DNA from: Simplicispira metamorpha
GTDB lineage: Bacteria; Pseudomonadota; Gammaproteobacteria; Burkholderiales; Burkholderiaceae_C
Direction: 5' to 3'
DNA: 64,000 nt
Assembly: GCF_004341365.1 (NCBI RefSeq)
Contig: NZ_SLXH01000022.1
Span: 1-64,000 of the forward strand
Position 1 is the stretch's first letter; every line of letters starts with the position of its first letter. Positions 6,273 to 34,531 of the stretch are shown piece by piece. Under the pieces are notes generated by a model. That model had not been told where the DNA came from. It worked only from the letters and a program-made list of their open reading frames with translations, and ran no database searches. The position numbers and the translations under genes were made by a program.

Positions 6273-8390
6273 TCAATGACACACCAATAACGCCCCCCGC
6301 TTTGCTCTGGTCAGCGCAACATACAACAGCTGTCGCTGGGTACCGCCATCTGGGTTGCTATCAAGGTAGCTTTTGGGCGCCACAACCGCCACACAATCAA
6401 ACTCCAGACCTTTGGCCCGGTGCATGGTGGACAGGTACACCACCCCTCGCTCGTCGGTATGGCTGCTCTGGGCCGTAATAGCCACGGTTCGTACCCCTGA
6501 TTGCTGCAGCAACTGGGCCAGCGCATCACGGTTTTTCTCGCTGGACGCGACCACACAGAAAGTCAATGCGATGGATTCCTCCTCGGTTAACTTCCACGAG
6601 GACAGGAACGCCTGGATGTGAGGAAAAGCTTCCTCCAGACCGTTGACGTGCGCAACGACCGGTGCGGGCCCGTGCGAGAGTGAACGGTATCGCACTGACT
6701 CGTCTTGCCCATCATCGAGGTCGTCAATTTCTACACCTTCGAGCAAAGACACCGCCTGGCGTCGTATTTCGTCGGTGGTACGGTAGTTGATATAGAGCTT
6801 TCTGGAACGCCCCCGAATGTCAATACCGCACTTGCTCATGGCCGCTTTGTTGCGGCTGTAAATGCGCTGGTGACCATCACCCACAAAGAACAAGTCGTTA
6901 GTATCCGCAGGAATCATGGCCCGCAGCAGTTTCAGCGCCTGGGGGCCAAAGTCCTGGGTTTCATCAATGATGATGGCGCTATAGGGGCTGGGTTTGGACT
7001 CTTGTTCCGCCACGAGCACCTGCGCCACTTCGCGGTAGGCATCGTCCACCTCCTTGAGCTTGCGAGAGGCCAACTGGCCTCGGTACTCCTCAAACACCGG
7101 CCAGACAGCGTCGCGCTTGGCACGGCTGAGCACCACGCCACGGCCAACACGTTTGGCTGTGCGGTACTCTTCCTGGGTCGTAATGCCCTGGGCCAAAACC
7201 ACTTGCTCCAGTTCCTGCTCATAAAAGCTGGGGGGCAAGTCCAAGCTGCTATCTCGCACAGCCAACGCCGACTGCCAGGCCTGCAAGGCACCTTCCTGCT
7301 TACGGTCATAGACGATGCGGTGTTCCCACCGGCGACTGCGCATGAAACCATGCACCCAGGCATCCAGATTGGTGACCTCCAGTTTGGCCAGCGTAGTGGC
7401 TCCGCACAGGGTCTTGAGGTTCTGGTCAATATCGGTGGCCAGGTTTTTGGTGAAGGTCGTGAACAACACCTTCTTGCCCGCTGGCGTGCGGTTTTCTGCC
7501 AGCCACCGTGCCCGGTGCATGGCCAACACTGTTTTACCAGTACCGGCACCCCCCAAGACGCGGACCGGGCCACTGCGGTCGCCAACGGCCAGCTTGGCCT
7601 GTGTCGGGTGCAAAAACACACGCCATTGCGACAGCGGGGCATTCAGAATGGCCGCCAATGACTCATCGTCACTGACCACGACAAAACGGGACTGTGACTC
7701 GGGTGTGGCCAAGGCTGCTGCAAAGTCTTGCGTGTCGATTTGACGGTCTACGCGGGTTTCGCGGATGTGCAGCACATGGTCAACGCTGTCGCCCGCTGCC
7801 ACCAAAAACAGTCCCTCGTAAGCTTCAACCGGCAAGCACGATTGCACCTGGTCCAAAGCCGCCTCATCGGCGAGGTGTTTGACCATGTCCACCAGTTCAG
7901 CAGGAACGCCCAGGCTCATGAGCTGCTGGTCCGACAGAGCGGCAAAAACGGTTTTTTTCTTCTCAGGCGGCGCTTGCACGGGCAGCGTGTCAGAGGTCGA
8001 TTCGGGTACTGAAGGGATGATAGAGGCGGCGCTTGGCTCAGGCACCTGTTCCACAGTCACCAGCTGCATGGCACCAGTGACCGGATTGATGGTCAGCTTG
8101 CGGTTTTCTGCCCAGCGGTAGGCTGCGTCGTGGTGGTCCACATAGAGCAGCACGTACACATCGCCTGATTTGGGCTTGAACACAATGCCGCGCCAGTCCA
8201 CATCCAGGCGTACCGACTTCAGGTTTGGGTCACGCGCGCCCTGGATGTTTTCGTAATTGATGCCAGCGCTTGTGGGGTCAGCCTGAAACTGCACAGCCCA
8301 CTTCATCACCTTGGCATGAACTTTCACTGGCAATTTGGCCAGCTGCATCAAAAAATCGTTGCTCAGCGCAACTTTCGGCTGGAGACTCAT
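6273..8390 (-). CDS. UvrD-like helicase with N-terminal RelE/ParE-like domain
   Basis: The 705-residue protein joins two parts. Residues about 1-100 resemble the RelE/ParE toxin fold (LAKLPVKVHAKVMKWAVQF, then RGIVFKPKSGDVYVLLYVDHHDAAYRWA). Residues about 250-705 form a superfamily 1 UvrD/Rep helicase: Walker A GGAGTGKT near 280-287, Walker B IIIDETQDFG, motif IV YINYRTTDE, motif V STMHRAKGLEFD and motif VI YVALTRAKRG at the C-terminus. A low-complexity Pro/Glu linker joins them. It begins 3 nt after the stop of the upstream DruE-like gene, so they are almost certainly co-translated. The toxin-like domain may recognise or cut nucleic acid, or be purely structural; I cannot identify active residues. 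Confidence 0.8.
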   Translation of the reverse strand: MSLQPKVALSNDFLMQLAKLPVKVHAKVMKWAVQFQADPTSAGINYENIQGARDPNLKSVRLDVDWRGIVFKPKSGDVYVLLYVDHHDAAYRWAENRKLTINPVTGAMQLVTVEQVPEPSAASIIPSVPESTSDTLPVQAPPEKKKTVFAALSDQQLMSLGVPAELVDMVKHLADEAALDQVQSCLPVEAYEGLFLVAAGDSVDHVLHIRETRVDRQIDTQDFAAALATPESQSRFVVVSDDESLAAILNAPLSQWRVFLHPTQAKLAVGDRSGPVRVLGGAGTGKTVLAMHRARWLAENRTPAGKKVLFTTFTKNLATDIDQNLKTLCGATTLAKLEVTNLDAWVHGFMRSRRWEHRIVYDRKQEGALQAWQSALAVRDSSLDLPPSFYEQELEQVVLAQGITTQEEYRTAKRVGRGVVLSRAKRDAVWPVFEEYRGQLASRKLKEVDDAYREVAQVLVAEQESKPSPYSAIIIDETQDFGPQALKLLRAMIPADTNDLFFVGDGHQRIYSRNKAAMSKCGIDIRGRSRKLYINYRTTDEIRRQAVSLLEGVEIDDLDDGQDESVRYRSLSHGPAPVVAHVNGLEEAFPHIQAFLSSWKLTEEESIALTFCVVASSEKNRDALAQLLQQSGVRTVAITAQSSHTDERGVVYLSTMHRAKGLEFDCVAVVAPKSYLDSNPDGGTQRQLLYVALTRAKRGALLVCH

Positions 8391-8393
8391 GCG

Positions 8394-11300
8394 TCATTCC
8401 TTCTCTGTGATGGGCAAACCCATGGCCCGGGCCAGTGCCTGGTACCACGCAACGCCACCTGTCTTTTCCATGGCCTCGTCCAGCAGGAAGACGGCCCATC
8501 CTTGCTGTTTCCAGGCTTCTTCCATGTCCGCCTGGTCGTCTCTGAGCACCACCACCCGGGCATCGGGCCAACACAGCTCACACTCAGCCAGCACTTTTCC
8601 TTTGTCATCAGCCAGTTCCAAACCGACCTCCGGGATGGCCGCACCGGACTCGGCCAAGCGCGTCAGGCCGTCTCGCAAAGGCGGCATCGTCTGTGCAATC
8701 GTTTGTTGCCAGGCGCCATTGATAGCAGAGTGCTGGACCGCTTTGGCATCATCTGCCTTGGACGCAAAATCCAGACGCACATAGTCATGGGCCTGCAAGC
8801 CAGTATCTGTCGCCAACCACATCCCAGGCAGCGTCTGGGTAGTGTTGTAGAGGTGCAGCCACAGGCGCCAGGACTGGTGCAGCGTCTCCTCGGCCGGTGC
8901 AGCGCTGTCTTCCAGCACCCAAACGCCGGGGGCACCCTGCTCTTTCAAGCCTTCCAACCCCACATTGGCGACAGCCATAGGCCAGATACCAAAGAATTTG
9001 CACACACCAGTAGCCCTGCCCACGCTGGGAGCAAATCCTTTGGGAACAGACTGCAAGTGCTGCGACAATCGCGCCGCCCACTGGCCCCACAAAGTCATGC
9101 ATTGAGCTGTTTGCGCTTTGCTGGAGGGCACCATCAAGAAGCCAAGCCACAGGGCATTGCGCTGCATTTGCTGCACCCCGGGGTCCACGCCCTGCGCAGT
9201 AGGGGTTCCAAGCCACATCAGCAGGCGGGCTACTGCATGGTAGGTAAAGGCTTTCTCCTGCGCCCGAGGGACGGCAGCGTGCGCCGTGCTGCCGTTATGG
9301 TGCGACATGGACACCAGGGGGGACTCCAGGTCGGTCTCCAATTCACCGCCCAGGGCACTGGTCACATCACGGTGGGTCACCGACCAGACCCAGAACTGTC
9401 CACTGCTGACAATGGCGCTGCGCTTGAGCGCATCCTCGCGCAAGGAGCCCTTGTGAAACGCCCAGCCATCACAAAACACGGCGATGGGGCGGCGCTTGCT
9501 GCTGGCAGACCAAGGCCAGATGACGAAATCGGGCTTGCTGGGCACCTGCACACCCTCGTCTGGTCCCAAAGCGCATTGGGGCTCGACTTTGTAGCGCTGT
9601 TGCCCCACTTCCAGAACAAAGCCGGACTTGCCGTGCACTACGTCACTGACCAGTTTCACTTTGGGAATCGGCCCCACCCCGCCCAGGCGCTGGAGGCATT
9701 CGATGAACCGGGATTCCAGCACGGAGTCGAAGTGGGGGTTGATGTAGATGTCCGATATCGTTTCGACCTTCTCCAGCTGTGCCAACGCCCCCACCAGTTC
9801 TGACAGGACCGACTTGGCGGTGTCCCTGGAGACCAGCTCCATACTTCGCCCAAGCCGGTACTGGAAGACGCAGCGGTAGCAGCCGTCTTTTTCTGGGTCT
9901 TCGTTGCATACACAGCCTGTCACCGCATCCAGGGCCATGCGCAGGACCTCGGTCAAGGTCCCGGCATCCTGGGCCAGTAACTGGTGCAGGTAACCGGTTC
10001 CACCGGGCACCGAATCGTAGAGCATCACGTAGTAACGCCGTGGGCCGCCATCTTTCCCGGGTTCATCCTGTAGCACCATGCGCAGGTGGTCCACCTTGCC
10101 ACCAAAACGTTTTTTCAGGCCCAGCTGGACTGCCGCCATGAACGACTGCACCACTTTCTCGTCCACCCCGTTCTTGGTGTAGGGCACCAGAATGCGCAGG
10201 GCCTCCGACTCAAACTCACGGTACAGATACAGGCACTCCAGCAAGTTGTCGGGGGACTTGCTGTCCCTTTTCGGGCAATCAAAACTGTGAACCTGCTCGC
10301 ACGCCTCACCATTGCGCCGGACGGGCTTTTGCACCTTGCCGCAGTACTTGCACAGGCGAAACCCTGGGCGGGAAGACTCTTTGTCGGCCACCTTGAAGGC
10401 CTCGCCGGGCTTGGCAAGCTCGCCAAAGTTGACATCCCGGAAGCTGACGCGGGAGATGAACTCAAAGCCAAAGGGTAAATCCCCGTTGTTGACTCTCCAG
10501 GCTTCCCGGATGTTTTCTCGCTGGAAATCCGCCATCAGCTGGCGTACGTAGTACTTGGGTTCGCGGTCTTCGGCGCTGTCGTCGATGCGCACTTCGGTGT
10601 CGTTGCTGTTGGCAATGGCCTGCTTGAAACGCAGCAAGGTGCGCTTTTGCGCCGCATCAGACCACATGGCATCGCCACACCGAGGGCACTGGGTGTGCAC
10701 GTCCGGCTCCTTGACCAGGTTCTGCATGTGGTGGCACGAAGGACAAAACCGCCACTCCTCGGCCTTGGCCAGGTTCATGTTGATTTGGTCCACCTCCACC
10801 CGGCGCTGGTTGGCATAAAAACGGTTTTCCGGGGCGAATTCCGACAGGGCTGATTGGGCAGGTCGCTCGTACTTGAGGGTGCTCAAGGTCACATAGGCAC
10901 CCTGCCCTGGTTCGTCGCTGGCACGCTTGCGCCAGAGCACCGACTTCAGTTCCACGCCGACCTCGGGGAAAGCGTAGTTGGGTATCAAACCTGCATCGGT
11001 CAGGGTGTTGAGCAGGTCGCGCCCATCAATCTCTTTGATGAGCTCCAGCATCTTGTCGCGTTCACGCAGCAGCTGGTCCATCTCATCGCGCGTGGCATCG
11101 TCCTGCGGACGCTGCTCCAACCGTTTCTTGCTGGTGTCGAGCTCATTCTTGCGCTTTTTGTAGCTGCGCCGCTCCTCCACCAGTTCCTCAAGTGCTTTGA
11201 CCAAACGGGTGCGCAAGCCGTCTGCCTCCCCCTGCCCCTGCATAAAGTCCAGCAGCCGCAGGCGAACGGTCTCGTCGATGTCACCGGCCAGCAAGGCCAC

Positions 11301-14300
11301 AAAGCCATCGAACAGCCGCTGCTCGTGCTGGGTGACGTAATTGCAAAACAGGTAAGGGAAGCGGTCTTGCTTGGCATGCTCCAGGGCATCCAGGGCCTGG
11401 GAGGTTTTGTCGGGCAGGGCCTTGTCGTTGCTCAGGCTGCTGACCCAGTCGTCCATACAGTAGGCAAACAACTGGCGGCGCAGTACTTCCGCCGCCTGTA
11501 GGAACACGCCAGGGGGAGCGACTTCACCACTGAGCATCTCCTGCGTTTCAGCAAAGAAGTACAGGTCGTGCGGGCTGCTGCCATCGGCCAAGGTGGTAGT
11601 CATGGCATTGCCATCACGCCGGCCGGCACGACCGATGCGCTGCAAAAAGCTCGCCTGATTCGGCGGTACCGAACACAGCAGCACCGAGGACAAATCGCCA
11701 ATGTCCACACCCATCTCCAGCGTGGGGGTGGCGGAGAGCAGGTTTTCAAACCACGGCTGTGGCTGCTTGCTTTTGAAACGTGTTTCCAGCTCCTCGCGGG
11801 CTGTGCGCTCCAGCAGACCGGTGTGCTCGGCGGCAATCACCCGCCGCATATCCCCCTGGCTGTAGCGCTGGGCCCACCAGCTGATGGCGTCGGGAATCAG
11901 CACTTCGTAGTGCGACTCGGGAGCATCCAGACAAGGCATACCCAGCAAATGCTCCGCCATGCTGCGCGGCACGGCCAGGCGGCGTTTGCTGCCCTGGGTG
12001 GCGACAAAGACCACATCGGTGTGCAGCTCCAGGAGTTCGGGATTGAGGGCCCAGGTACCTCCTTCGTGGTGGTCCGTGCGCAGCAGCAGAGCCGCCTTCT
12101 CCAGTGCCTGCAAGGCATCGGCAGCCATCTCTGGCGCCATGCCTTTGCGCATCAGGGCTTGCTGCCCCAGCACGGCATAGGCCCAGCGGTCGTACCAAGT
12201 GGCTTTTTGCTGGCCGCTCAACTTGTCGAAGTCACGCTGTCGCCCCTCGGTCAGAAAGATAGGTTTGGGGGAGCGTCCGAGCAGGCTGGGCAACCATTCA
12301 CCCCGACCTGCCGTTTTGAGCAAGGCAAAGACGTTGCCATCGCCGGCGTAGTGCTGCAACTCAGGGTGCATCACTGCACCGCGCCGGCGCATATGGGTGA
12401 GCAGGCCCCACAGCCACTGCGTCACGGTGAGCTGGTCCAGGCCCTGGGCACCGTAGTGCTCCTGGTAGCGCGGCAACAGCTCCTGGGCCACCGCATCGAC
12501 CTCGCCCCAGGGAACCGCCAGCACCGCCTTACCCACCCGCTCCAAGGTACGGCCTCGCTGGCTTTGGTAGGTCCACTCGCTGAAGGCTTGCCACAAAAGG
12601 CGTTTTTTGACGCGGCCAGGCAGCCGACTTTCCGTGGGCAGACGCTGGTGCTGCAGCAGCTCTACAGCCCAATCACGCTGCCAGGTCATGTTGGGCGCAA
12701 TGAACTCGGCTACCAGCTCAGCATCTGGCAGATGCAGCACCGAGCCCTGCGTTGCAAAGCGTTGCTCCATGGCAGCCAGAAACTCGGACCAGGGCATGAC
12801 CGGGCGCTGCATCTCGTCCAGCACATGGGCCAGGGCCGTGCGCACATTGTTCAGGTAGGTGCGGGCACCAAAGAAGCCAGCCCGGTGGGCGGCATCCTGC
12901 ACCGAGTCCGAGAAAGCAATCAGCTTCTTGTCATCGTTGAACACACTGGCCCAGGTGCTCTCCACCACTTGGGAGCCCAACGTGGCATTGCGGGCACCGA
13001 GCAGGAATTGGGTGTCTTTTTCTCCGCAGGCCGGGCAGGTGTTGTCGTGCAGGGTGTACTGGGTGTTGCCGCTGATTTGGGTTTTCTGGGCCGTGACCCG
13101 GAAAACACCCAGCAACTCCCGGTGGCCACAGGCCAGGCACTCGTCCTGGGAGTTCTGCAAGGTGCCACACGATAGGCACACCCGCTCTTCCACGCCGTCC
13201 ACATGGCTGCGGCCCACACTGCCTGCGGCGTACAGGCGTGTGGCCTCGGGCCTGCGGGCAAACCAGGTGTTGTAAATCTCATCGAGCGCCACGGAGAGCT
13301 TGCTGCTGCCCTCCACTTTGCGCGAAATCCAGCCCGTGGTGCGGCATTGGCTGCATTGGACCAAGGGCAGATACACCCCGTCGCGGCTACCAGGTAAGTC
13401 TCTTTCACTGCAAAAACGCATGTCTTCGGGGTTCACGGTGAGCTTGCCCACCATGCGCCGCAGCTCACGCACCCACAATTGCACGCGCAGTGTGACCAGG
13501 GGTTGCCCGTTCTCGCCCAAGGCCCAGGCGACCAGAACCAGCAAGGCGTCGAGCACCTGGCCCACCTGGGCGCGGCTCGCCGTGGGCATGTGCCGGGCAA
13601 AGGCTTCGGTCAGTTCCCGGTAGCTGACTACCCCGCCGCGCAGGAGCTTGAGCAAGTTGACGAACCACTGGTGCTGCTTGAGCCGCTTGCCCAGGGTCTT
13701 GCGCCAGCCGGGCTCGCGCACATCCTCTGGAACGACTTCTTCCGGAAAAAACAGAGTGAACCATGCCGCCACGGCCTGTTCTGGGCTGGCGTATTGGCGC
13801 GCATCCAACGCTGCTTCCAACTCGGGTCGGAAGGTGAACATGTAGTCCACCGTCGCCTCTTCCAAAAAGGCGCCCACCGACTGGCGGCTTTCTGTGACCA
13901 CGGCGTCCTCGTCAAACGCCACGCCAAAAATCTGCCGCGCATAGTCGCGCAGCGGTGCCGTGTCCGACGAACCACCCAGTGTGGCGGAGGTACCCGCACA
14001 AATCAGGTGACCGGCAGGGATTTTGAGGCGGGCGCGCAAGCGGCGCAGCAGCAAAGCCAGGTCGGTACCCTGGGCGCCGTCAAAGGTGTGCAGTTCGTCC
14101 ACCACCACATAGCGCAGAGTATCTGGGGCGTTGTGGGCCCACAGCGTCCTGTCCTTGGGGCGCAGCATCAGGTAGTCCAGCATCTTGTAGTTGGTCAGCA
14201 AGATGTCGGGTGGGTTCTTGCGCAGAGTGTCGCGGTCGGTGATGACGGTTGTGCTGGTCATCAGCACGCCCTGGCCGGGTGCGCTGGCCTGGCCCCCCAC

Positions 14301-14792
14301 GTACAGCCCTACGCGCAAGCCAGCAAAGGCGGGCACGGTGGCTACCAGCTCGGCAATGCGGCGTGCCTGGTCGGATGCCAGGGCGTTCATGGGATAAATC
14401 ACCAGGGCTTTGATGCCGGCTTGTCCGCTGGCGCGAGCGCGGGCACAGTGGTTCAGCACCGGAAACAGAAAACACTCCGTCTTGCCGCTGCCGGTGCCCG
14501 TGGCTACCAGGGTGCTCAGCGCCTTGTGGTTGCTGGACAAGCGCTCCCAAGCACGTTCCTGGTGACTGTAGCCGGGAAACTTTGTCTCAAAGCTCTGGAA
14601 GAAGCTGCGCCCCGCCCTGCCCTCGCTGAACGGCAGGCCCACCTGCACATAAGGTCCCTTGAGCCAGCTCTCCTCGTCATTGACGAAGCGGCCCATCAAG
14701 CCGTGGCTGAAAGCATCGGCAGGTTCGTAGGCAGAAACCAGGAATTGTTTGAGACCAGTCTGGATGTCGCGGGCAAGGAGGGAAGGGAGCAT
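8394..14792 (-). CDS. Giant DEAD/DEAH helicase with DUF1998-type C-terminus (DruE-like)
   Basis: This 2132-residue protein has the size and order of the Druantia helicase DruE. An N-terminal helicase core has Walker A ATGTGSGKTE (about 96-105), VVDELHTFDGAQGTD (about 229-243) and GTSATLG. A second RecA-like lobe has MEVGVDIGDLSSVLL and QRIGRAGRRDG (about 1050). Four Cys-rich zinc-binding groups follow the family layout: CLSCG...CLACG near 550, CPACG, CPSC...CPRCG near 1380, and CVCNEDPEKDGCYRC near 1630. The last sits in the DUF1998/MrfA-like region. The start is ATG at 14792, 26 nt after the PIN gene. Family knowledge says such helicases remodel or unwind foreign DNA in defence. A 36-codon fragment of a diverged homologue lies at 16737-16844. 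Whether it is a true DruE needs a profile search. Confidence 0.8.
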   Translation of the reverse strand: MLPSLLARDIQTGLKQFLVSAYEPADAFSHGLMGRFVNDEESWLKGPYVQVGLPFSEGRAGRSFFQSFETKFPGYSHQERAWERLSSNHKALSTLVATGTGSGKTECFLFPVLNHCARARASGQAGIKALVIYPMNALASDQARRIAELVATVPAFAGLRVGLYVGGQASAPGQGVLMTSTTVITDRDTLRKNPPDILLTNYKMLDYLMLRPKDRTLWAHNAPDTLRYVVVDELHTFDGAQGTDLALLLRRLRARLKIPAGHLICAGTSATLGGSSDTAPLRDYARQIFGVAFDEDAVVTESRQSVGAFLEEATVDYMFTFRPELEAALDARQYASPEQAVAAWFTLFFPEEVVPEDVREPGWRKTLGKRLKQHQWFVNLLKLLRGGVVSYRELTEAFARHMPTASRAQVGQVLDALLVLVAWALGENGQPLVTLRVQLWVRELRRMVGKLTVNPEDMRFCSERDLPGSRDGVYLPLVQCSQCRTTGWISRKVEGSSKLSVALDEIYNTWFARRPEATRLYAAGSVGRSHVDGVEERVCLSCGTLQNSQDECLACGHRELLGVFRVTAQKTQISGNTQYTLHDNTCPACGEKDTQFLLGARNATLGSQVVESTWASVFNDDKKLIAFSDSVQDAAHRAGFFGARTYLNNVRTALAHVLDEMQRPVMPWSEFLAAMEQRFATQGSVLHLPDAELVAEFIAPNMTWQRDWAVELLQHQRLPTESRLPGRVKKRLLWQAFSEWTYQSQRGRTLERVGKAVLAVPWGEVDAVAQELLPRYQEHYGAQGLDQLTVTQWLWGLLTHMRRRGAVMHPELQHYAGDGNVFALLKTAGRGEWLPSLLGRSPKPIFLTEGRQRDFDKLSGQQKATWYDRWAYAVLGQQALMRKGMAPEMAADALQALEKAALLLRTDHHEGGTWALNPELLELHTDVVFVATQGSKRRLAVPRSMAEHLLGMPCLDAPESHYEVLIPDAISWWAQRYSQGDMRRVIAAEHTGLLERTAREELETRFKSKQPQPWFENLLSATPTLEMGVDIGDLSSVLLCSVPPNQASFLQRIGRAGRRDGNAMTTTLADGSSPHDLYFFAETQEMLSGEVAPPGVFLQAAEVLRRQLFAYCMDDWVSSLSNDKALPDKTSQALDALEHAKQDRFPYLFCNYVTQHEQRLFDGFVALLAGDIDETVRLRLLDFMQGQGEADGLRTRLVKALEELVEERRSYKKRKNELDTSKKRLEQRPQDDATRDEMDQLLRERDKMLELIKEIDGRDLLNTLTDAGLIPNYAFPEVGVELKSVLWRKRASDEPGQGAYVTLSTLKYERPAQSALSEFAPENRFYANQRRVEVDQINMNLAKAEEWRFCPSCHHMQNLVKEPDVHTQCPRCGDAMWSDAAQKRTLLRFKQAIANSNDTEVRIDDSAEDREPKYYVRQLMADFQRENIREAWRVNNGDLPFGFEFISRVSFRDVNFGELAKPGEAFKVADKESSRPGFRLCKYCGKVQKPVRRNGEACEQVHSFDCPKRDSKSPDNLLECLYLYREFESEALRILVPYTKNGVDEKVVQSFMAAVQLGLKKRFGGKVDHLRMVLQDEPGKDGGPRRYYVMLYDSVPGGTGYLHQLLAQDAGTLTEVLRMALDAVTGCVCNEDPEKDGCYRCVFQYRLGRSMELVSRDTAKSVLSELVGALAQLEKVETISDIYINPHFDSVLESRFIECLQRLGGVGPIPKVKLVSDVVHGKSGFVLEVGQQRYKVEPQCALGPDEGVQVPSKPDFVIWPWSASSKRRPIAVFCDGWAFHKGSLREDALKRSAIVSSGQFWVWSVTHRDVTSALGGELETDLESPLVSMSHHNGSTAHAAVPRAQEKAFTYHAVARLLMWLGTPTAQGVDPGVQQMQRNALWLGFLMVPSSKAQTAQCMTLWGQWAARLSQHLQSVPKGFAPSVGRATGVCKFFGIWPMAVANVGLEGLKEQGAPGVWVLEDSAAPAEETLHQSWRLWLHLYNTTQTLPGMWLATDTGLQAHDYVRLDFASKADDAKAVQHSAINGAWQQTIAQTMPPLRDGLTRLAESGAAIPEVGLELADDKGKVLAECELCWPDARVVVLRDDQADMEEAWKQQGWAVFLLDEAMEKTGGVAWYQALARAMGLPITEKE

Positions 14793-14818
14793 GTTGTCGT
14801 TCGTTCTAGGCGAGGGAC

Positions 14819-15520
14819 CTATTTGGCACGCCCCTTGGTTGCAGGTTTGGCGGCACTTGGCTGTGCAAGCCCCCAGCGCACAGCCAGGTCGGCTGCCAGC
14901 TCCTGGTTGTCAAACTGCTGCGGGCTGCTGATAGAAGCGAGCATGTCCAACAGCGAGAAAGCTGGGTTCTTGAAATCCGCAGCCGTCTTTTGCAGGCTGC
15001 TGGATGCCCCCTCGGGGTTCATCTGGTACACCAGTTGCAACACATCGCCTGGGTGCAAGGGAAACACGCCGAACGGCTCCAGCACCTTGGCCGGTAAGTC
15101 TTTCAGGTTGTCGGTAGCCAGCACCACATCGTAGCCCGTGGTTTGCGCCCAATCGGCAGCGGCCAAAGCCATATGCACATCGTCAGGGTCTGGCAAGCGC
15201 AAAAGTGGTGCGAATGCCTTGTTGCCGCGCAACAGCTCCGGCCGCTCGCCGTTATCGTCCCAACCCGGCAGCTGAAAACCGGGCACTAGGTGCTTTTTGA
15301 CGGGTGCCAAGCGCTTTTGAGCCCAAACCAGGTCTTCAAAGGTGCTCCCGCGCTGATTGGCTTGAGCGCGAAGTCGCGCACGGTGCTTTGCGTATTCCAC
15401 CTCAATCTGCGGGGTCCAGCGCAGGTCGATAGCACCTGCCTTGGCAAGGTCGAAGAATGCGAATAACACCACGTCCTTGACCAGTACATTGGCGTCCGCA
15501 AGGACGATAAGCGGCGGCAT
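14819..15520 (-). CDS. PIN-domain protein, probable toxin
   Basis: The 233-residue protein opens with LADANVLVKD, the first acidic strand of PIN nucleases, and later shows DPDDVHMALAA and LATDNLKDLP, matching the distal acidic positions of the fold. The PIN region spans roughly 1-160; the C-terminal 70 residues are an unmatched helical tail. PIN proteins of this kind are metal-dependent RNases, mostly VapC-like toxins. Its start ATG overlaps the TGA of the upstream HTH gene (TGATG), the usual layout of a coupled antitoxin-toxin pair. It is followed after 26 nt by the DruE-like gene, so it sits inside a defence operon. Confidence 0.75.
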   Translation of the reverse strand: MPPLIVLADANVLVKDVVLFAFFDLAKAGAIDLRWTPQIEVEYAKHRARLRAQANQRGSTFEDLVWAQKRLAPVKKHLVPGFQLPGWDDNGERPELLRGNKAFAPLLRLPDPDDVHMALAAADWAQTTGYDVVLATDNLKDLPAKVLEPFGVFPLHPGDVLQLVYQMNPEGASSSLQKTAADFKNPAFSLLDMLASISSPQQFDNQELAADLAVRWGLAQPSAAKPATKGRAK

Positions 15521-16681: not shown

Positions 16682-16736
16682 CCAAGCACAGCTCACTGGC
16701 TCATCCTTCGTTTGGCGATGCCGGAACGTCATCGCC

Positions 16737-16844
16737 AAAGCGGCTCATCAAACCGTGGTTGAAGGCCTCGGCGGGCTCGAAGGCAGAAACAGGAAACTGC
16801 TTCAGGGTCGATTGAATGTCATTTGCGAGAAGAGATGGAAGCAC
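16737..16844 (-). pseudogene. 5' remnant of a second, diverged DruE-like helicase gene
   Basis: Beginning with GTG at 16844, two nt after the stop of the 500-residue gene, the minus strand encodes about 36 residues (LPSLLANDIQSTLKQF, VSAFEPAEAFNHGLM). They match the first 36 residues of the intact 2132-aa helicase at 27 of 36 positions. Similarity ends abruptly after SRF. The nucleotide match is far from perfect, so this is not a recent duplication. It shows that a DruE-like gene once followed directly in this operon and was deleted or replaced. Confidence 0.85.
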
Positions 16845-16846
16845 GC

Positions 16847-23293: not shown

Positions 23294-26200
23294 TCATTGC
23301 GGCTGCTGCCTATCGAAGAACGCCCACGCCACCCGGTAGTCATCCTCGCGGCTGGCGCGGGCGAAGGGGGCGGTGTAGGTGCGTTGCACTTCGCGCGGGC
23401 CGCCGGGCAGGGTGTCGTCCATGAGCCATTGGGTGATGGTGGTGCCGTCGGACACCTTGGGGGTGCCGCCGCGCTTTTGGGTTTCTTCGCTGTCGCCGGC
23501 GTCTGCGCTGGCGTAGGTCCACAGGTCGTCCCAGCCGAAGTTGCCTTCGCGCACTTTGCCATCGGGGGTGGCGATGCGGGTGCGGGGCGTGCTGCGGCTG
23601 CCTTTGCGCGGCAGGCCCACGCCAACCAGGCCTTTGCTGTTGGTGAAGACGATGCGGCCGGTGGCGTCGTACCAGGTGTCGCGCTCGTAGCCTTGCATGA
23701 CGGGGAATTGCACGCGGTAGATGAGCAGCAGCTCGTCCAGCGACAGGCCCAGGGCTTGGGCCACCAGCACGTCGATTTCGACCAGGGCCATGCGGCGGGC
23801 GTAGTCGCTGCGCAGGGCGCAGTCGCGCGTCCAGGTGCTGGTGAGCGCGGGCCAGAAATCGTGCGGCAGGCGCGGGTTGCCCGGCTGGCTCCAGCGCTGG
23901 TCGGCAAAGTCCAGGTCATAGACCTGCTCCCACAGCGGAGCGTAGTGGGTGGTGAGGCAGTTGAGGGTGAGGGCGCGGGCAGAAATGTCCGCGGATGTGG
24001 AAAGCCTTGGCAACTGCGCCAATCCCTCACCATAAAGGTCGCCACGCCCAGTGCTTTTGATAAAGAAATCAACGAATAACGAGTTCAGCATCGCTGTACA
24101 TGAAAGCAGTAGCTGCTGATTCTGGAAACTCGTGGCAATACAAGTATTGATGATGGCTGAACCAGGGGGAATTAGCGCAGCAACCAGAGTTCGTTCACCC
24201 GACTGGGACAGTCGGCGGCGATGCACTAGCCGGAAAAACTCCGTCACGGGCCTTCCGCGCGCTTCCCCCTCTTCAATCCAGCTCACGCGAGCCGTGCGGC
24301 GCAGGTATTCCGCGCGGTCGGGCATAGGTCGGTAATTGGTGCGCGGCAGGTAGTCGTCGGGCAAAGTTCCAAGGTCAACGTTGTCATATGCCAATGGCGT
24401 GTTACAGAGTTTGCGCGGAGTTTTACAAAACGGGTTAGCCACAAAGAAATGCGGGCCAGACAGCACCCAGTCGTGCGGCGTAGCGGCAAAGCCTGGGTCG
24501 GTGCTGGGGCGGCGACTGATGGTGCCGTCGTGTTGCTGGGCGGTTTCGTTCCACATTTCGGTAGCGAAGTAGCCCTCGTCCAAGTCGGCCAAGCGCTGGG
24601 GATAGGCGGCAAGTTTGGCCAATACATTACTCAAGGCGCCAGCGTGTAAAGCGGGCAGTCGGGCACGGCGAGCGGGGGTGCCAGGTTCGTCGTAAAGCTT
24701 GGCAAAGGTGGTCAGCGCGGCTTCGTCCACGCGCACAATACGGTCACGGTGACCGGCTGTGTTCCAGTCACCGTTTGCCGTCTTTATTCCATCGGCCAAT
24801 CCATCACCTTCGTGCTGATACGACGCATCGACCGTGGCTGGGATAAAAACATTGGCAAGGGTGTCGAAAGCAGGCTGCTGCCTTCTTGGGCCATATATAT
24901 TGATTGAATATGTGACCCAGTGCAGCACTTCAGCAAATAGCTTTTTGACATTGACAAACTGAAAATGTCTTCTCAACCGCGCATAAATTGCCTCGCGTAA
25001 TTCCCCACCCTTGGGGTCCTCGTACGGCCCTTCGGGGTGCAACAGCCCGGCTACGCCCTGCGCGCTGCTCAAGTGCCAAACCAATGGCAAAAAACACTTG
25101 TATAAGTTGGCAGGCATGCCCTTGAGCTGTGGGTAGTTCTGCACGGCATTCAAAAAGGCTTGCGTGCCTTCGGCTTCTTCCAGCTCTTGCAACCAGTCGG
25201 CCTGCAGGCCGGGGAACTGGGCAAAGGCTTCGGCGCGCAACTGGGCCAAATCGCTGGCGCTGATTTTGCGCACGGCAAACACCGGGTTGCGCTCGCCCAG
25301 AATGCCGGCCTCGTTCCACTCCACCTTCAGCCAGGGCGGGTTGCCCAAAATCAGGTCAAAACCTGCGCCGGAGCGGCCCTCGGTGCCCGGGCCTGCGCCC
25401 AGCAGCACATCGGCAAAGCACAGCTCCCAGTGCATAAAGCGGCGCTGCGCGGCAATGCCCTCCACCACGGCGATGCGGCTAAACAACTGGCGCAGTTTGC
25501 TGATGCGCAGCTGGCCCAGCTTGTCGTGCAGGCGCGGGGCGGCGGCTTGCAGCTCGGGCTGCGGGTCGTCAAAACCGGCAAAGCTGGGTTGCACGTTTTG
25601 GAACACTAGCTCGCCCGTGCGGGTGGCGGGCTGGTCAAACAGCAAGCCCGCCTGGGGCGTGACGTCAATCACGTTGCCTTCCAAAATGGCGCCCACTTCC
25701 ATCCACCACTGTTCGCGGCTGGGCAGCTCGTGGCTTTGGGTAATGGGCCAAAACCACAGGGCGCACCAGTAGTCCATGACCAGCTTCAGGCGGCGGAAGG
25801 GCGTGGCCAGGTCGCCATCTTCATTGAGCAGGCCTTGCTGGCGGATGGCTTCTTTTTGCGCGCGGCTAATGCGGTGGCTGCGGCTTTCATTGCTATTTTG
25901 ATAGCTGCTTGCGCTTGCTGGGTGGTCGCTAGAGGCCGATTTGGCTTGAAATTCGGGGCGCATACCGTGCGGCCACACGGGGGTGGCATCTTCGGTGCGG
26001 GCGCGGTCGCGGGCCAGGGCGGCGCGGTGCTCGGCCCAGAGTTCATCCACGCGCTGGCTCAGTTGCTGCAGGCGGGCAATCTCATGCGCGGCCAGTGGGG
26101 CGCAGAAGGCTTTGCGCCAGGTTTTTAGCTGGGCAAATTCGGCGGGGTAGAGTTTTTTGGCGTCTTTGTCGCCGTAATCGGCCATGCCGGGGTCGGGCAG

Positions 26201-28510
26201 CAAAAAGTGCCAGATTTCGTCCGGGCGGCGCGGTGCGCTGGCGCTGGCGCGGCGCGGGGGTTCTTCATGCCAGGCGGGTTTGGCGCCTTTTTTCAGGGCG
26301 GCGGCGTTGAACACCTGGTGGCGCGCGCCAATCAGGCTGTTGCCCGCAAACAGTTGGTAGCCAAACCAGGGCACGCGCGCGGGCAGGGGCTGGCCGGTGG
26401 CTTCGTCTTGCTCGCCATAAATGGCGTTGAGCCACAGCGAGACTTCGGCAAGCTCCACGGCCACGGGGTTCAAGTCCACGCCAAACACGTTGCGGTCGGC
26501 CAGGTACATGCGCACTTTTTGCAGCTCTTGCGGGTACTGGTCGTGGGGGATGCGGGTTTTCAGCTCGGCCTGTTTGCGCTCTAAATACGCCTCGGCCAGC
26601 TGGTTCACGGCTTCGTTCAAGAAGGCGGCGCTGCCCATGGCGGGCTCGCAGACGGTGAGGGTGAGGATGTCATCGGCCTTTTGCACGCGGCCGTTTTTCT
26701 CGTCCAGCAGTTCTTTCAGGGCGTACTTCACCAAGCACTGGGTGAGCACCTGCGGGGTGTAGTAGCTGGCGCTTTTTTGCCGGTCGCGGCCCGCCAGGCG
26801 GTAGATAAAGCTGCCCTTGGGGTGCATACGCAGCTTGCGGCGGCCTTCTTCCACGTCGTACACCTTTTCATCGTCGCGGTAGTCGTCGATGTGGCTGCGG
26901 GGCACAAACCAGGCGTTTTCCAGCAGGTCGGCGTCCGAGTCGCTGGCGCGGGCGCGGCGGCTGGTGTCTTCGGCGTCGTCGCTCTCGCTGTCGTCCTCGC
27001 CTTCGTCGCTGGCCGCAGCGCTGGCTTTTTTGGGCGCGGGTTTGACTTCGTAGAGGTCTTCGTCGGCAAAAAAGCCCCGGTAGCTGAGCAGCGCCTCATA
27101 CACGGCGCCCAGTTGGTTGATGGACAGCAGCTGGTAGCTGACGCGGCCCGCGCGCCGACCCTTGCCGCCTTTGCTGAGCGAGAGCAGGCGAATCACGCGC
27201 TGCCACAGGGCGTTGGGGAATTGCACCTTGGCCAGCAGCGGCAGGGTGCTGTCGTCAAACAAGCGGCTGTCGAGTGGCGCCAGGGCAAAGGTGTCTTTGG
27301 CGCCCTGGGGCACCGGGGCGTGGCTGTCGTGGTTGGCACGCAGGCTGGCTTGTTCGCCTGCCAAGCCGCAGCCGTGGGCCACCAGCGTGAACAGGCGGCG
27401 CAGGGTGAGGTCGAAGTATTTGCCCTCGCGCGCCTGGGGGGTGGGCAGGGGCTGCAGTTCCAGGTCGCGCAGGCTCTCCAAACTGTAGCCCTTGAGGTAC
27501 ACCTCGCTTTGGTTGATGGGCACATAGCCCAGCTCGGGCCGCGCCTCGATGTAGAACATGAACAGCAGCCGGTACACCATGCGCAGGCATTCCAAACTGA
27601 GTTCGCCCGCATCCAGCTTGTATTGGCCCGAATACACGCTTTTTTTGCTGCCACTGGCTTGTTCATCCAACTGGCGGGCGGCTTCGTTGCCCAGCAGCTC
27701 GATGGCTTCGCGCAGGGCGTATTTCAAGTCCTCGCTGACGCCAAAGGCGTGTTTGTGGGCGTTTTCGTCCAGGCTCTCCAGCAAGCTGCTGCCTTCGCCG
27801 GGGGCCAGGCTGTCTTTGTGCAACAGGGCGGCGCAGGCTTTGAGGGTGTCAGCGTCCTTGCGGTCGAGGATGTCGGCCCAGGTAAAGCGCAGGGCACGGT
27901 TGTTGGGCCATTTGTAGCGGTCCAGCAGCAGCCATTCGTCCAAGCCCAGCAGCAGCACATAGCGCGGGGGCTGGTCGGCGCCAAACACGGCATCCGAGAG
28001 CAAATCGGCCCAGGTTTCGCCCTTCACCTGGGGCGGCAAGGGCTCGGTGCCGTAGTGGAAGGCGGTGAGCTGGTGGTCCAGCAGGTCATCTTCTTCGCGG
28101 CTGGGCTGGTAGGCGGGGATGATGGCCAGGCGCTGGCCCAGCAACTCCCACATGGGCAGCGGCAGGCCGGGCACCAGCTCTTGCAGGGGGGCGGTGCGGG
28201 CGGGCGCGGTGTAGCCCAGGGCTTGCAGCAGGCCGGTTTGCAGCTGCACAAAGGTGGCCCAGCGCTCGTGCTCGTCTTTGCCGCGCTGCACCTGGCCGCG
28301 CAGGGCAAACCAACGCTGGGCCCAGGCTTGCAGGCGCTTTTGCGGGGCGCGGTGGGCATCTTGGCCGGGGTGCTGGGCTTCGGTGGCGTCCCAGGCGTCT
28401 AGGCGGGTTTTGATGTCGCCCTTGAACACTTCGGCCAGGTAGTGGTGGCTGTAGAACTCGTTTTCGTTGGTGATGCCAGCAAAAGTTTGTACGGCTTCAA
28501 GGATGGGCAT
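23294..28510 (-). CDS. Giant adenine-specific DNA methyltransferase-like protein
   Basis: The 1738-residue protein contains a class I N6-adenine methyltransferase core: motif I CEPAMGSAAFLNEA near 620 and motif IV LILGNPPWLKVEW near 1055, with a long insertion between them. The C-terminal part is Eco57I/DISARM DrmMI-like. The 600-residue N-terminus lacks a visible nuclease motif, although a type IIG-like nuclease cannot be ruled out. Acidic low-complexity sequence (DEGEDDSESDDAED) lies near 500. It begins 3 nt after the stop of the SNF2 helicase gene, so the two form one unit. The gene is clearly more GC-rich than the kinase/helicase gene after it. Probable role: host-genome marking for a restriction-like system. 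Confidence 0.8.
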   Translation of the reverse strand: MPILEAVQTFAGITNENEFYSHHYLAEVFKGDIKTRLDAWDATEAQHPGQDAHRAPQKRLQAWAQRWFALRGQVQRGKDEHERWATFVQLQTGLLQALGYTAPARTAPLQELVPGLPLPMWELLGQRLAIIPAYQPSREEDDLLDHQLTAFHYGTEPLPPQVKGETWADLLSDAVFGADQPPRYVLLLGLDEWLLLDRYKWPNNRALRFTWADILDRKDADTLKACAALLHKDSLAPGEGSSLLESLDENAHKHAFGVSEDLKYALREAIELLGNEAARQLDEQASGSKKSVYSGQYKLDAGELSLECLRMVYRLLFMFYIEARPELGYVPINQSEVYLKGYSLESLRDLELQPLPTPQAREGKYFDLTLRRLFTLVAHGCGLAGEQASLRANHDSHAPVPQGAKDTFALAPLDSRLFDDSTLPLLAKVQFPNALWQRVIRLLSLSKGGKGRRAGRVSYQLLSINQLGAVYEALLSYRGFFADEDLYEVKPAPKKASAAASDEGEDDSESDDAEDTSRRARASDSDADLLENAWFVPRSHIDDYRDDEKVYDVEEGRRKLRMHPKGSFIYRLAGRDRQKSASYYTPQVLTQCLVKYALKELLDEKNGRVQKADDILTLTVCEPAMGSAAFLNEAVNQLAEAYLERKQAELKTRIPHDQYPQELQKVRMYLADRNVFGVDLNPVAVELAEVSLWLNAIYGEQDEATGQPLPARVPWFGYQLFAGNSLIGARHQVFNAAALKKGAKPAWHEEPPRRASASAPRRPDEIWHFLLPDPGMADYGDKDAKKLYPAEFAQLKTWRKAFCAPLAAHEIARLQQLSQRVDELWAEHRAALARDRARTEDATPVWPHGMRPEFQAKSASSDHPASASSYQNSNESRSHRISRAQKEAIRQQGLLNEDGDLATPFRRLKLVMDYWCALWFWPITQSHELPSREQWWMEVGAILEGNVIDVTPQAGLLFDQPATRTGELVFQNVQPSFAGFDDPQPELQAAAPRLHDKLGQLRISKLRQLFSRIAVVEGIAAQRRFMHWELCFADVLLGAGPGTEGRSGAGFDLILGNPPWLKVEWNEAGILGERNPVFAVRKISASDLAQLRAEAFAQFPGLQADWLQELEEAEGTQAFLNAVQNYPQLKGMPANLYKCFLPLVWHLSSAQGVAGLLHPEGPYEDPKGGELREAIYARLRRHFQFVNVKKLFAEVLHWVTYSINIYGPRRQQPAFDTLANVFIPATVDASYQHEGDGLADGIKTANGDWNTAGHRDRIVRVDEAALTTFAKLYDEPGTPARRARLPALHAGALSNVLAKLAAYPQRLADLDEGYFATEMWNETAQQHDGTISRRPSTDPGFAATPHDWVLSGPHFFVANPFCKTPRKLCNTPLAYDNVDLGTLPDDYLPRTNYRPMPDRAEYLRRTARVSWIEEGEARGRPVTEFFRLVHRRRLSQSGERTLVAALIPPGSAIINTCIATSFQNQQLLLSCTAMLNSLFVDFFIKSTGRGDLYGEGLAQLPRLSTSADISARALTLNCLTTHYAPLWEQVYDLDFADQRWSQPGNPRLPHDFWPALTSTWTRDCALRSDYARRMALVEIDVLVAQALGLSLDELLLIYRVQFPVMQGYERDTWYDATGRIVFTNSKGLVGVGLPRKGSRSTPRTRIATPDGKVREGNFGWDDLWTYASADAGDSEETQKRGGTPKVSDGTTITQWLMDDTLPGGPREVQRTYTAPFARASREDDYRVAWAFFDRQQPQ

Positions 28511-28513
28511 GGC

Positions 28514-31471
28514 TCAGGCTCCGGCGGGCGAGGGGGCAGCTTGGGGGTGGCAGACGCCGGCGAGCACCTGAATCCAGGGCTGGGGCTCGGTAGTGAGGGT
28601 GTCGTGCACCCACTGGCGGTAGTCGTCAAACACGCGGCGGATATGCTGGCTGCGCTGCTCAAAGCGGCCACGCTGCACAGTCTCCAGCTGTTTTTCCAGG
28701 TCGAGTGTGAGCTGCTGTATTTGCGCCCCTTGCAGGCGTTGCAATTCGGCCAGGGTGCCTTCCAGTCGTTGGGTGAGCTGCTGCGCAAAGGCCTGTTGGC
28801 GTTCCAGCATGAAGCGGTGCATGGTCTGCACGGCCTGCGGCAGGGCTTGCTGCATCTGCGCTTGCAGGCCGGCCAGTGCCTCGGTGTGGCCCCGGTTGGG
28901 CAAGCCCGCGGCTTTGAGGCCGGCGCGGGCGGCAAAGGCATCGAAGCCTTCGAGGGCAAAGGCGCCCTGCCCTACCCGGTGGGCCACTTGCCATTCCACC
29001 AGCAGGGGCTGGCCCTTGCGGTTGGGGATGAGGCTCATCAGGATGAAGGCCTGCTCTTGCGGGGCCAGCCGGTGGCTTTGCAGCAGCGGGGCTTTGTGGC
29101 GGCCAAAGTGGGTCAGCACGCGGTCGCCCAGCCATTCCATGATGGGGTGCTGGGGCCAGAGGTAGTGCAGCCGGGGCCAGGTTTCTTCTTCAGAGCGGGC
29201 CTGGCGGGCGGTTTCGATGGCCTCGGCCATACGTACCGGGTCGGCACACAGGGGGTAGTGGTCGTTATCGGCCTGGGCCTCGCGGGGCAACTGGCGCAGG
29301 CGCTCTTGCAGGTCCAGCGGCGCGGTAATAGAAATAATTTGCTCGGCATCGACCGCAGACCACTGGCACAGCGTTTGCCCCTGGTTGAGCTGGGTGAGTG
29401 CGGTTTTGGCGTAGTGGTAGTCGCTGGGGAACAGCGAGGCAGGCTCGGCAATGTGTGCGGTGCTGGAGGCTGGTGGCTCAGAAGATGTAGCTTCGCCGCC
29501 TTCGGTGCTGGCACCGGCACCAAAGAGCTGCATCAGCCAGTCACCCTCGTTGTCGTCCTCACTGCTGGCCGCTTGGTCCAGGGTGGCTTCAACCGCTTCA
29601 GGCGCCAGGCCATCTGCCATGAAGTCGGAGATTTTGGCCGCTTCCTTTTCGGGGTCGAAAACGTTGAGGAAGGCCGAAGGGTCACCAAGGTTCAAGTAGG
29701 CCTGCTCGTCCTTGGCTTGCAGGATTTCAAGGATGCGCAAGTCACCCCGGATTTTGTCGTTCACGGTTTCGGTGAACAGATAGACGATGTGCGGCTGGTG
29801 CTTTTGGCCGTAACGGTCCACGCGGCCATTGCGCTGCTGGAACACCATCAGGGACCAGGGCAGGTCAAAGTGAACCAGGCGGTGGCAGAAGTAGTGCAGG
29901 TTCAGACCTTCGCTGGCCACATCCGAGCACAGCAGCACGCGGATGGGGTCGTCGAGGCGGCCAAAGCGGTCTACCAGAGTTTGCTGCTCGGTGTCCGACA
30001 TCTGCCCGTGCAGCATGGCGACCTGGTTGGGCTTGAGCTTGAGGTCTTGGCTGAGCTGATTTTCCAGCCAGCGCAGGGTTTCAATGCGCTCGGAGAAGAT
30101 GACCAAGCGGTCTTCGGCCTGGATGACTTGCCAGCCAAATTCGGGCGATTTCAGTTGCTGCAGCAGGCGCTGGTACTTGCTGAAGGACTGGGCTTTGCTG
30201 TCGTCGACCAGGGTGCGCAGGGCATCGGCAAACACCTCCAGGCCATCGATTTCCTGGCCTTCCTCAGCCGTGGGGCTGCTCTTGCCACGCAGCAATTCCA
30301 TGCGCTTGAGGGTGGACTCCAGCGCCGCCGCCGGGCTGGAGAACAGGGCTTTTTGCATACCCACGCGCTGCAACTCGGTCTGGCGTCCACCTTTGCGCTG
30401 CCCACCCTGGGTGAAGGGGATGGCAAGCAAGGCGCGGTAAGCAGCCTCTTCCTGGGCGCTGGCCGCCTGGCTCAGGCACAGGGTCTGGCGCTCTTGGAAA
30501 TCGGCGCTCACCTGGTCTTTGATGTCTTTCTTGAAACGGCGAATGACCAGGCCTTTGCTACGGAAGTCATCGGGCGTGTAGCGGTCTGGGTCGGAGATGG
30601 CCGTGGGGTCCAGCAAGCTCATCAAGGAGGCAAAGCTGCGCGCTGAGCCGTCATGTGGCGTAGCGGACAACAGCATCAGCGTGTCAGAGCGGTTGGACAG
30701 CAACCGCGCCAACCTTGCCCGGCGCGACAGGCCCGACTCCCCTGCCCTGGCTGCGACGTTGTGGCATTCGTCGATGACGATGATGTCCCACCAGGCGTTT
30801 TCCAGATAGTTGCGGTACTCCAGGTTGTTCTTGAGCGTGTCTATCGAGATGATGCTGCGGTCGAAATGGTTGAAGGGGTTGTGATTGGCTGGGATGCGGT
30901 TGCGCACCCGACCCAGGCCCACGGAGTCCAGGCGGGTCAGGGGAATGGAGAAACGACTCCACCACTCTTTCTGGAACTGGGTGAGCATGGCCTTTTGCGT
31001 GACTACCAAGATGCGCTTGCCCCGGCCCCTCTGTATCAGCTCAGTAGCGAGGATGCCCGCCTCCAGCGTCTTGCCCAGCCCTACGGCATCGGCAATCAGG
31101 ATGCGCGAGCGCGGTTGGCGCAGCGCCTGCAAGGCAGGGTCCAGCTGGTAAGGCACCAGGTTCATCACGCCCCGGTGGCCCAGGTGAATCTGCTCGTCAT
31201 TGGCCACGCTGCGCCTGCGCATGCTCTCCAGATAGAGGATGGTGGCGTTGTAGGTGGGACTGGCATCGGGCACCAGCTCAGTCTGAGCCGGGTCCAGCAC
31301 CTCGATGTGGTCTTCCAGCGCCGTCAAAAACAGCGCCGACTGGCCACGCACCAAGTCAGAAATGCCATCGCAGGTGAGCAAGTAGCCGCCATCGGTAGCG
31401 GGGTCCACACGGCGAATGAGCCACTCTTCATCACGTATCACGGCGCGCGCGCCAGGAGCAAAAGCAAGCAT
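28514..31471 (-). CDS. SNF2/RapA-like superfamily 2 helicase (DrmD-like)
   Basis: The protein is a SNF2-type DNA translocase: motif I ADAVGLGKTLEAGI near 130, DECH box IIVIDECHNVAARAG near 230, motif III LLSATPHDGSARSFASL, and motif VI QQRNGRVDRYGQKHQPH near 550. A helical, Gln-rich C-terminal region (LQAQMQQALPQAVQTM, RRVFDDYRQWVHDTL) resembles a coiled coil. The ATG at 31471 is used; a GTG at 31495 would add eight residues. It is the first gene of the minus-strand block and is followed 3 nt later by the methyltransferase. SNF2-methyltransferase pairs are typical of class 1 DISARM (DrmD/DrmMI) and of helicase-methylase systems such as Hma; which one applies is unresolved. Confidence 0.8.
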   Translation of the reverse strand: MLAFAPGARAVIRDEEWLIRRVDPATDGGYLLTCDGISDLVRGQSALFLTALEDHIEVLDPAQTELVPDASPTYNATILYLESMRRRSVANDEQIHLGHRGVMNLVPYQLDPALQALRQPRSRILIADAVGLGKTLEAGILATELIQRGRGKRILVVTQKAMLTQFQKEWWSRFSIPLTRLDSVGLGRVRNRIPANHNPFNHFDRSIISIDTLKNNLEYRNYLENAWWDIIVIDECHNVAARAGESGLSRRARLARLLSNRSDTLMLLSATPHDGSARSFASLMSLLDPTAISDPDRYTPDDFRSKGLVIRRFKKDIKDQVSADFQERQTLCLSQAASAQEEAAYRALLAIPFTQGGQRKGGRQTELQRVGMQKALFSSPAAALESTLKRMELLRGKSSPTAEEGQEIDGLEVFADALRTLVDDSKAQSFSKYQRLLQQLKSPEFGWQVIQAEDRLVIFSERIETLRWLENQLSQDLKLKPNQVAMLHGQMSDTEQQTLVDRFGRLDDPIRVLLCSDVASEGLNLHYFCHRLVHFDLPWSLMVFQQRNGRVDRYGQKHQPHIVYLFTETVNDKIRGDLRILEILQAKDEQAYLNLGDPSAFLNVFDPEKEAAKISDFMADGLAPEAVEATLDQAASSEDDNEGDWLMQLFGAGASTEGGEATSSEPPASSTAHIAEPASLFPSDYHYAKTALTQLNQGQTLCQWSAVDAEQIISITAPLDLQERLRQLPREAQADNDHYPLCADPVRMAEAIETARQARSEEETWPRLHYLWPQHPIMEWLGDRVLTHFGRHKAPLLQSHRLAPQEQAFILMSLIPNRKGQPLLVEWQVAHRVGQGAFALEGFDAFAARAGLKAAGLPNRGHTEALAGLQAQMQQALPQAVQTMHRFMLERQQAFAQQLTQRLEGTLAELQRLQGAQIQQLTLDLEKQLETVQRGRFEQRSQHIRRVFDDYRQWVHDTLTTEPQPWIQVLAGVCHPQAAPSPAGA

Positions 31472-34523: not shown

Positions 34524-34531
34524 GATGCACC

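Follow-up and report, generated by a model that had tools for sequence, protein, structure and literature searches.

Gene content of the locus

Within the window, by which we mean the whole 64,000-nucleotide stretch of DNA analysed, the locus consists of the following features:

armA, 28514..31495, minus strand: SNF2/RapA (BrxHII/DrmD-like) helicase of 993 aa
armB, 23294..28510, minus strand: PglX/DrmMI-like N6-adenine methyltransferase of 1738 aa
mkoA, 18346..23229, minus strand: nested cargo; 1627 aa with a NERD nuclease-like region, kinase-like regions and a UPF1-type SF1 helicase
mkoB, 16847..18349, minus strand: nested cargo; 500 aa
armC scrap, 16727..16844, minus strand: 117-bp remnant from the 5' end of another armC, immediately 3' of mkoB
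small ORF, 16235..16738, minus strand: of doubtful status; by eye it has one membrane-like stretch
HTH gene, 15520..16107, minus strand: excisionase-like DNA-binding protein, antitoxin-like
PIN gene, 14819..15520, minus strand: PIN-domain protein, putative toxin-like RNase
armC, 8394..14792, minus strand: YprA/DruE-like DEAD helicase of 2132 aa with MZB/DUF1998 fused inside
armD, 6273..8390, minus strand: GajB-like UvrD helicase of 705 aa with a predicted N-terminal RelE-like region

The ORF listing confirmed that all large ORFs of the locus lie on the minus strand, as the initial annotation of this DNA had stated. Its description of tiny gaps or overlaps holds for most junctions: 3 bp separate armA from armB and armC from armD, 64 bp separate armB from mkoA, and 26 bp separate the PIN gene from armC; mkoA and mkoB overlap by 4 bp and the HTH and PIN genes by 1 bp. 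It does not hold between mkoB and the HTH gene, where a spacer of about 740 bp contains the armC scrap and the doubtful small ORF. Family searches supported the four helicases (SNF2, UPF1-like SF1, DUF1998 DEAD and UvrD), the adenine methyltransferase and the NERD nuclease-like domain named in that annotation, and gave softer matches for its RelE-like, PIN and kinase-like parts. The annotation had left the MkoB gene (16847-18349) unnamed.

The outer genes match ARMADA type II

As described by Bell et al. (bioRxiv 2025, PMC12458937), ARMADA type II consists of ArmA, ArmB, ArmC and ArmD in strict order, and its features include a GajB-like helicase with an N-terminal RelE-like domain and a C-terminal Vsr-type nuclease on ArmC. 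According to the same text, the E. coli system depends on all four genes and fully on most motifs tested, and it protects without killing the cell. The outer genes of the window stand in the same order: BrxHII/RapA-like helicase, PglX-like methylase, YprA-like helicase and GajB-like helicase. The full ARMADA II set, present on a plasmid and on the E. coli I2 chromosome, served as reference for the window proteins. All four matched over nearly their full length, with identities of 47% for ArmA, 47% for ArmB, 36% for ArmC and 43-44% for ArmD. The GxG and NPPW residues of armB are kept and the Walker residues of armA (Walker A and B), armC and armD are conserved. The window was aligned to E. coli I2, which has the residues named by Bell et al. 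at the positions they give, and is identical at 8/8 of the residues mutated in that study (ArmA K136/D236, ArmB G605/N971, ArmC K110/D234 and ArmD K266/D454). Judged by sequence, the outer four genes are a full-length ARMADA type II operon. The likeness extends to the four proteins, the A-B-C-D order and the conserved mutated residues; the difference is that 8.5 kb of cargo lies between armB and armC here, set against the strict gene order of the published description. The Pfam scan of armC gave no nuclease match. The RelE/ParE-like domain of the initial annotation gave no Pfam match at E 0.01, and we infer a RelE-like N-terminal region in armD because the protein matches E. coli ArmD over its full length.

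A PADLOC run, which the initial annotation had proposed as a check, named the Mokosh type I genes and left the ARMADA set as single-family matches. The name ARMADA is absent from all match lists of the PADLOC copy used (2023); the system was described later, in 2025. ArmA matched DrmD at 330 bits (353 bits with the NCBIfam DrmD model, under its cut-off of 610), ArmB a type IIG methyltransferase at 823 bits and DrmMI at 145 bits, and ArmD the NERD+UvrD family at 104 bits and GajB at 77 bits in addition to Pfam UvrD. ArmC matched Pfam DEAD and MZB, and its PADLOC match to DruE (348 bits) exceeded its best match to DrmA (57 bits).

The locus resembles DISARM class 1 and Druantia in single proteins (armA and DrmD, armB and DrmMI, armC and DruE). 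Among the best 25 PADLOC matches for each of nine proteins there was no DrmB or DrmC and no other Dru family (druH etc.), and the flanking ORFs at 1195-2289, 3304-5127, 5099-5755 and 31843-32409 had no PADLOC match. Membership of DISARM was rejected, as separate drmA, drmB and drmC genes were not found, and so was membership of Druantia, for which a DruE-like protein is present and the partner gene was not found. The initial annotation was thus right that no full match to either system exists and that there is no separate DrmB, MZB/DUF1998 being fused inside the 2132-aa helicase.

Mokosh and toxin-antitoxin-like genes between armB and armC

MkoA matched the PADLOC model PDLC03921 at 1722 bits over residues 1-1623, and MkoB matched PDLC03923 at 369 bits. 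Adjacent full-length MkoA and MkoB, as in the PADLOC models, define Mokosh type I. By these matches, armB and armC enclose a complete Mokosh type I pair. It resembles Mokosh type I elsewhere in its full-length MkoA-MkoB, and differs in being nested in another defence operon with a toxin-antitoxin (TA)-like pair behind it. The two kinase-like domains noted earlier beside NERD are matched by PADLOC kinase models at two separate regions of MkoA, and the Pfam protein-kinase match (28.4) fell below its cut-off of 31.7. A single-sequence structure model of MkoB was poor (pLDDT 35). Mokosh degrades foreign viral transcripts, according to PMC11291487.

The HTH protein matched PADLOC mad1 (E 5e-7), with Pfam HTH_17 under cut-off. 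The PIN assignment of the initial annotation agrees with the annotation of relatives as PIN proteins; the NCBIfam match (RSP_2648 PIN) is sub-threshold, at 48 bits against a cut-off of 170. An excisionase-family gene lies under or beside the match in 11 of the 12 plasmid relatives of the PIN gene listed (of 54 matching), and these 11 look like copies of one locus. Both genes recur in the armB-armC slot of genome G1363 (94% aa identity for HTH, 86% for PIN). We regard HTH-PIN as a putative toxin-antitoxin-like pair. A single-sequence structure model of the PIN protein was poor (pLDDT 46), no sigma-70-like promoter was found in a scan of 14700-17000, and megablast of window positions 14819-23229 against plasmids gave no match. 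The small ORF had no Pfam, NCBIfam or PADLOC family match except PADLOC REase_II (E 0.0025); its DNA is conserved in G1363, yet no forward ORF of at least 70 aa is listed there.

The armB-armC junction in other loci

We searched with ArmC against overlapping genome sets (369 genomes from the class, 150 and 399 from the family, 399 from the order, 398 from the phylum and another 48 from the class). Matches at E 1e-100 came from 27 distinct genomes; armB and armC were both on the fetched stretch in 21, and 6 were dropped. To these we added 13 plasmid records (of 40 listed and 174 matching), 12 of them countable, and one chromosome from the 518 E. coli genomes described below. Seven of the 41 loci were left out of the count: G334, G102, G196, G1026 and G1031 lacked armB on the part of the contig fetched, armA and armB were not found in G1480, and in a Cylindrospermopsis plasmid (L067) the ARMADA II-like genes run C-D-A-B rather than A-B-C-D. 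The search for the gene order in other genomes, also proposed initially, thus showed the outer families together and in the same order in 34 loci, with armA not seen in one.

Inserts of 500 bp or more are present at armB-armC in 20/34 loci, at armA-armB in 0/33 and at armC-armD in 0/35. Fisher tests of armB-armC against the two other junctions gave p-values of 3e-8 and 1e-8, which are optimistic because the loci share ancestry, which the test ignores. Among species genomes, a sample that leans on the window's own family, the junction is filled in 17/21 (9/9 within the family, 8/12 outside). Among loci from named records, which are partly near copies (e.g., two Haematobacter and three enterobacterial loci), it is filled in 3/13 and empty in 10/13. 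In E. coli the junction was found in 518 of 5426 genomes, and in 495 of these 518 a single place accounts for 80% or more of a 2-kb probe, so that no insert above about 1.5 kb is present there. This result counts against a universal slot.

We scanned slot proteins encoded on the operon strand (30 with Pfam, 23 with PADLOC) and treated opposite-strand ORFs as shadow ORFs or transposon; the shared orientation of the cargo is therefore partly a selection effect. By family match or likeness to a scanned copy, a defence or TA family could be assigned to 14 of the 20 filled slots:

Window: Mokosh and HTH-PIN, 8.5 kb splitting armB from armC
G1461: Mokosh, its mkoB carrying a transposon
G1363: HTH-PIN and one gene without assigned family
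G402: Ham1 and SIR2
G449: NOV_C, KAP (PifA-like), a DrmD-like helicase (863 bits) and one gene without assigned family
G1357: KAP-like gene (64% similarity to G449) and AbiEii (339 bits)
G1434: HTH/ImmA-like protein and PsyrTA (993 and 473 bits)
G641: HNH, Gp49-like and HipA
G842: HTH protein next to a Gp49-like gene (from likeness to G641)
G806: Schlafen AlbA_2
G847: kinase (best PADLOC match 58 bits)
G247: PDC-M28-like ATPase
G986: DUF4258 and MqsA-like (just under cut-off)
G905: UPF0175 and DUF3368

The remaining 6/20 filled slots gave no clear match to a defence or TA family:

G145: two genes judged lipoprotein-like by eye, one of them scanned in PADLOC with no match
G1494: 1142-aa protein (L084:13917-17342) with no Pfam or PADLOC match
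G1398: second gene about 41% to the NOV_C gene of G449
Nostoc: MoxR-like fragment
Two Haematobacter plasmids: weak M78 peptidase

The loci taken together have at least ten cargo families at this one junction. The 1142-aa protein of G1494 is a candidate new defence gene. A 344-aa gene of G1398 and a 280-aa gene of G986 had no Pfam or PADLOC match. In the uncounted G334, a LeoBC/LeoA dynamin-like pair lies 5' of armC (L027:153-5794), followed by small HTH and HipA-like genes (by eye).

Probable recombination at the slot

The cargoes occur in different combinations. Mokosh is common to the window and G1461, HTH-PIN to the window and G1363, and KAP to G449 and G1357; Mokosh occurs without HTH-PIN in G1461, and HTH-PIN without Mokosh in G1363. 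The window's MkoA is 94% identical (aa) to the copy in G1461.

Whole-gene trees with up to nine family members placed the window's armB within the G1363/G1357/G1461 group (support 100/100), which we treat as the putative donor clade, and rejected its grouping with G402 (p-AU 3.5e-10). The best trees of armA, armC and armD pair the window with G402, with modest or weak support (88/91, 67/65 and 77/99, respectively). A grouping of the window with the donor clade was rejected for armD (p 0.008), and was not rejected for armA (0.14) or armC (0.076). Donor-like and G402-like site patterns number 689:143 in armB, 218:177 in armA, 642:534 in armC and 167:176 in armD. The window and G1363 are 80% identical in armA, 83% in armB, 71% in armC and 68% in armD. 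The contrast is therefore clear for armB against armC and armD, and slight for armA against armB. G1363 and G1357 are 91, 89, 92 and 87% identical in these four genes, which look co-inherited.

The armC scrap directly behind mkoB fits this picture, being 86% identical (nt) to the armC start of G1363 versus 72% to the window's own armC. Ends of armB or armC, the chassis genes, were recovered in 4/20 slots (0/200 mononucleotide shuffles), strongly in the window (E 6e-15), G1434 and G247 (E 5e-24 and 8e-15 for these two) and weakly in G986 (E 0.003). Those of the window, G1434 and G986 lie between two cargoes. A short armC-start scrap after mkoB was seen by eye in G1461; it is below the search threshold and was left out of the count.

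Most likely, armB, Mokosh and the start of armC were imported as one block from another ARMADA lineage. The left edge of this block is not fixed, because grouping with the donor clade was rejected only for armD. A breakpoint at about 23980 in armB was considered and rejected, as identity is uneven over the length of armB, with a low in a variable stretch at about 24110-25900; on the identities, site patterns and trees, the switch is therefore placed at the level of whole genes. We likewise rejected an identity of 94% for cargo versus 72% for chassis as proof of independent movement, since conserved parts of armB also reach about 90%.

A probable cargo slot within an ARMADA II operon

We consider it very likely that the locus is an ARMADA type II operon whose armB-armC junction is a cargo slot, with Mokosh type I and, behind it, HTH-PIN stacked there. 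The initial description as a hybrid or undescribed system was apt as to hybrid; the parts are ARMADA II, a nested Mokosh I and a TA-like pair rather than something undescribed.

Other readings have to be weighed against this one. That ARMADA and Mokosh form a single integrated system of seven or eight genes, one machine with mutually dependent parts, we judge very improbable. The single strand with mostly small gaps or overlaps would fit such a machine, as would the same Mokosh in the same slot of G1461. Against it, no MkoA-MkoB pair was matched in 32/34 counted ARMADA II loci, and the four E. coli genes protect alone, as described in PMC12458937. Mokosh was also seen elsewhere: the pair lacks ARMADA genes in the fetched flanks of 3/3 genome-collection loci (L002 from Dechloromonas, L003 and L004; the upstream side of L003 is unseen because it begins inside mkoA), and MkoA relatives of 51-52% identity occur in two genomes of the family, G476 and G483, neither among the ArmC-matching genomes.

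The junction might instead be merely permissive, a place where chance DNA lands and stays because it is harmless. This is unlikely in our estimation, if less so than a single machine. In its favour, some slots carry non-defence or unassigned genes (G145, G1494 and Nostoc), and a transposon sits within mkoB of G1461. The defence or TA families in 14/20 filled slots speak against it, with the qualification that a defence-island setting alone could enrich such cargo, and the two neighbouring junctions are unfilled in the same set. Uneven selection along the operon, with no recombination, could in principle yield a mosaic armB, given that identity is uneven within armB and that armA and armB of the window and G1363 are similarly alike. 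We give this account little credence. armB is less alike than armC between G1363 and G1357 (89 vs 92% nt) and more alike than armC between the window and G1363 (83 vs 71%), and the armC scrap is closer to the donor lineage than to the window's armC.

We read armB-armC as a recombination-fed cargo slot. An armB-Mokosh-(armC start) unit would have arrived by recombination from another ARMADA lineage, which would leave the HTH-PIN pair standing between the armC scrap and the window's own armC. Co-expression is likely, as predicted from the single strand and from gaps that are all small apart from the roughly 740 bp before the HTH gene. In operation, ArmB may mark self DNA or read its marks, and ArmA, ArmC and ArmD may load onto and process unmarked phage DNA with no cell killing, as in the E. 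coli system. Mokosh (RNA helicase-kinase-nuclease) could supply a second layer that responds to another trigger, and the PIN RNase pair a last-resort or plasmid-stabilising one. More tentatively, and with somewhat less than even odds in our view, ARMADA II operons could be self-propagating defence cassettes, in which armB and the trailing module are swapped as a unit by homologous recombination in armB and armC with no integrase, and in which cargoes stack, leave scraps and may be kept as a guard against phage ARMADA inhibitors.

Relation to other nested defence systems

Embedded defence genes are described for BREX/BR in PMC12839542, and embedding is described for Hma (Payne et al. 2024, as cited). 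Type I R-M systems with embedded TgvAB appear in PMC11411939 and with embedded DarTG2 in PMC12255303, where hsdS-hsdR is suggested as a potential recombination hotspot. As in the present locus, a defence or TA module is flanked on both sides by genes of one methylase-helicase system made up of several genes. What sets the present case apart is its ARMADA II host, the ten or more cargo families that share one junction across loci, the chassis scraps between cargoes and a methylase gene that seems to travel with the cargo. In the main text of PMC12458937, as distinct from its supplements, the terms Mokosh, kinase and 'interven' do not occur; the relevant passages of PMC13192584 and PMC12904381 mention ARMADA in passing only. 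In the literature searched, the main ARMADA text included, we found no report of cargo between armB and armC of ARMADA. Embedding as such is already known, and what is new is the site, the armB-armC junction of ARMADA II as a cargo junction.

This names an exact place in which to seek new defence modules, including genes without a Pfam or PADLOC match. The slot also suggests how a restriction-like operon could replace its methylase together with its back-up defences at a single stroke. Loci that differ in the presence of cargo form natural pairs in which the joint action of nested systems can be tested.

Probable plasmid context and neighbouring defence genes

The contig (C22) is 76,820 bp long and not closed, and its two ends form a 94-bp inverted repeat. 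TrfA-like, RepA, ParA and ParB genes are located at 1195-2289, 32524-33813 and 34478-36786. The contig is probably a plasmid. A CBASS-like operon on the plus strand (54136-59292) encodes a 2TM-SAVED effector, a CD-NTase and an E1-E2 protein, and a further ORF there combines JAB and exonuclease regions. It adjoins a Gabija pair on the same strand (59479-62659; GajA 769 bits, GajB 618 bits). Beyond the window, C22 carries a TIR-type Aga protein (455 bits) and a short pAgo (553 bits) at L094:3160-6566, which make up a SPARTA-like pair. A metallophosphatase and nSTAND NTPase protein on the minus strand (48332-51367) matches the PADLOC candidate PDC-S60 at 280 bits, and a NOV_C protein on the plus strand (39763-40905), with a HIT-domain gene beside it, matches the candidate PDC-S36 at 327 bits.
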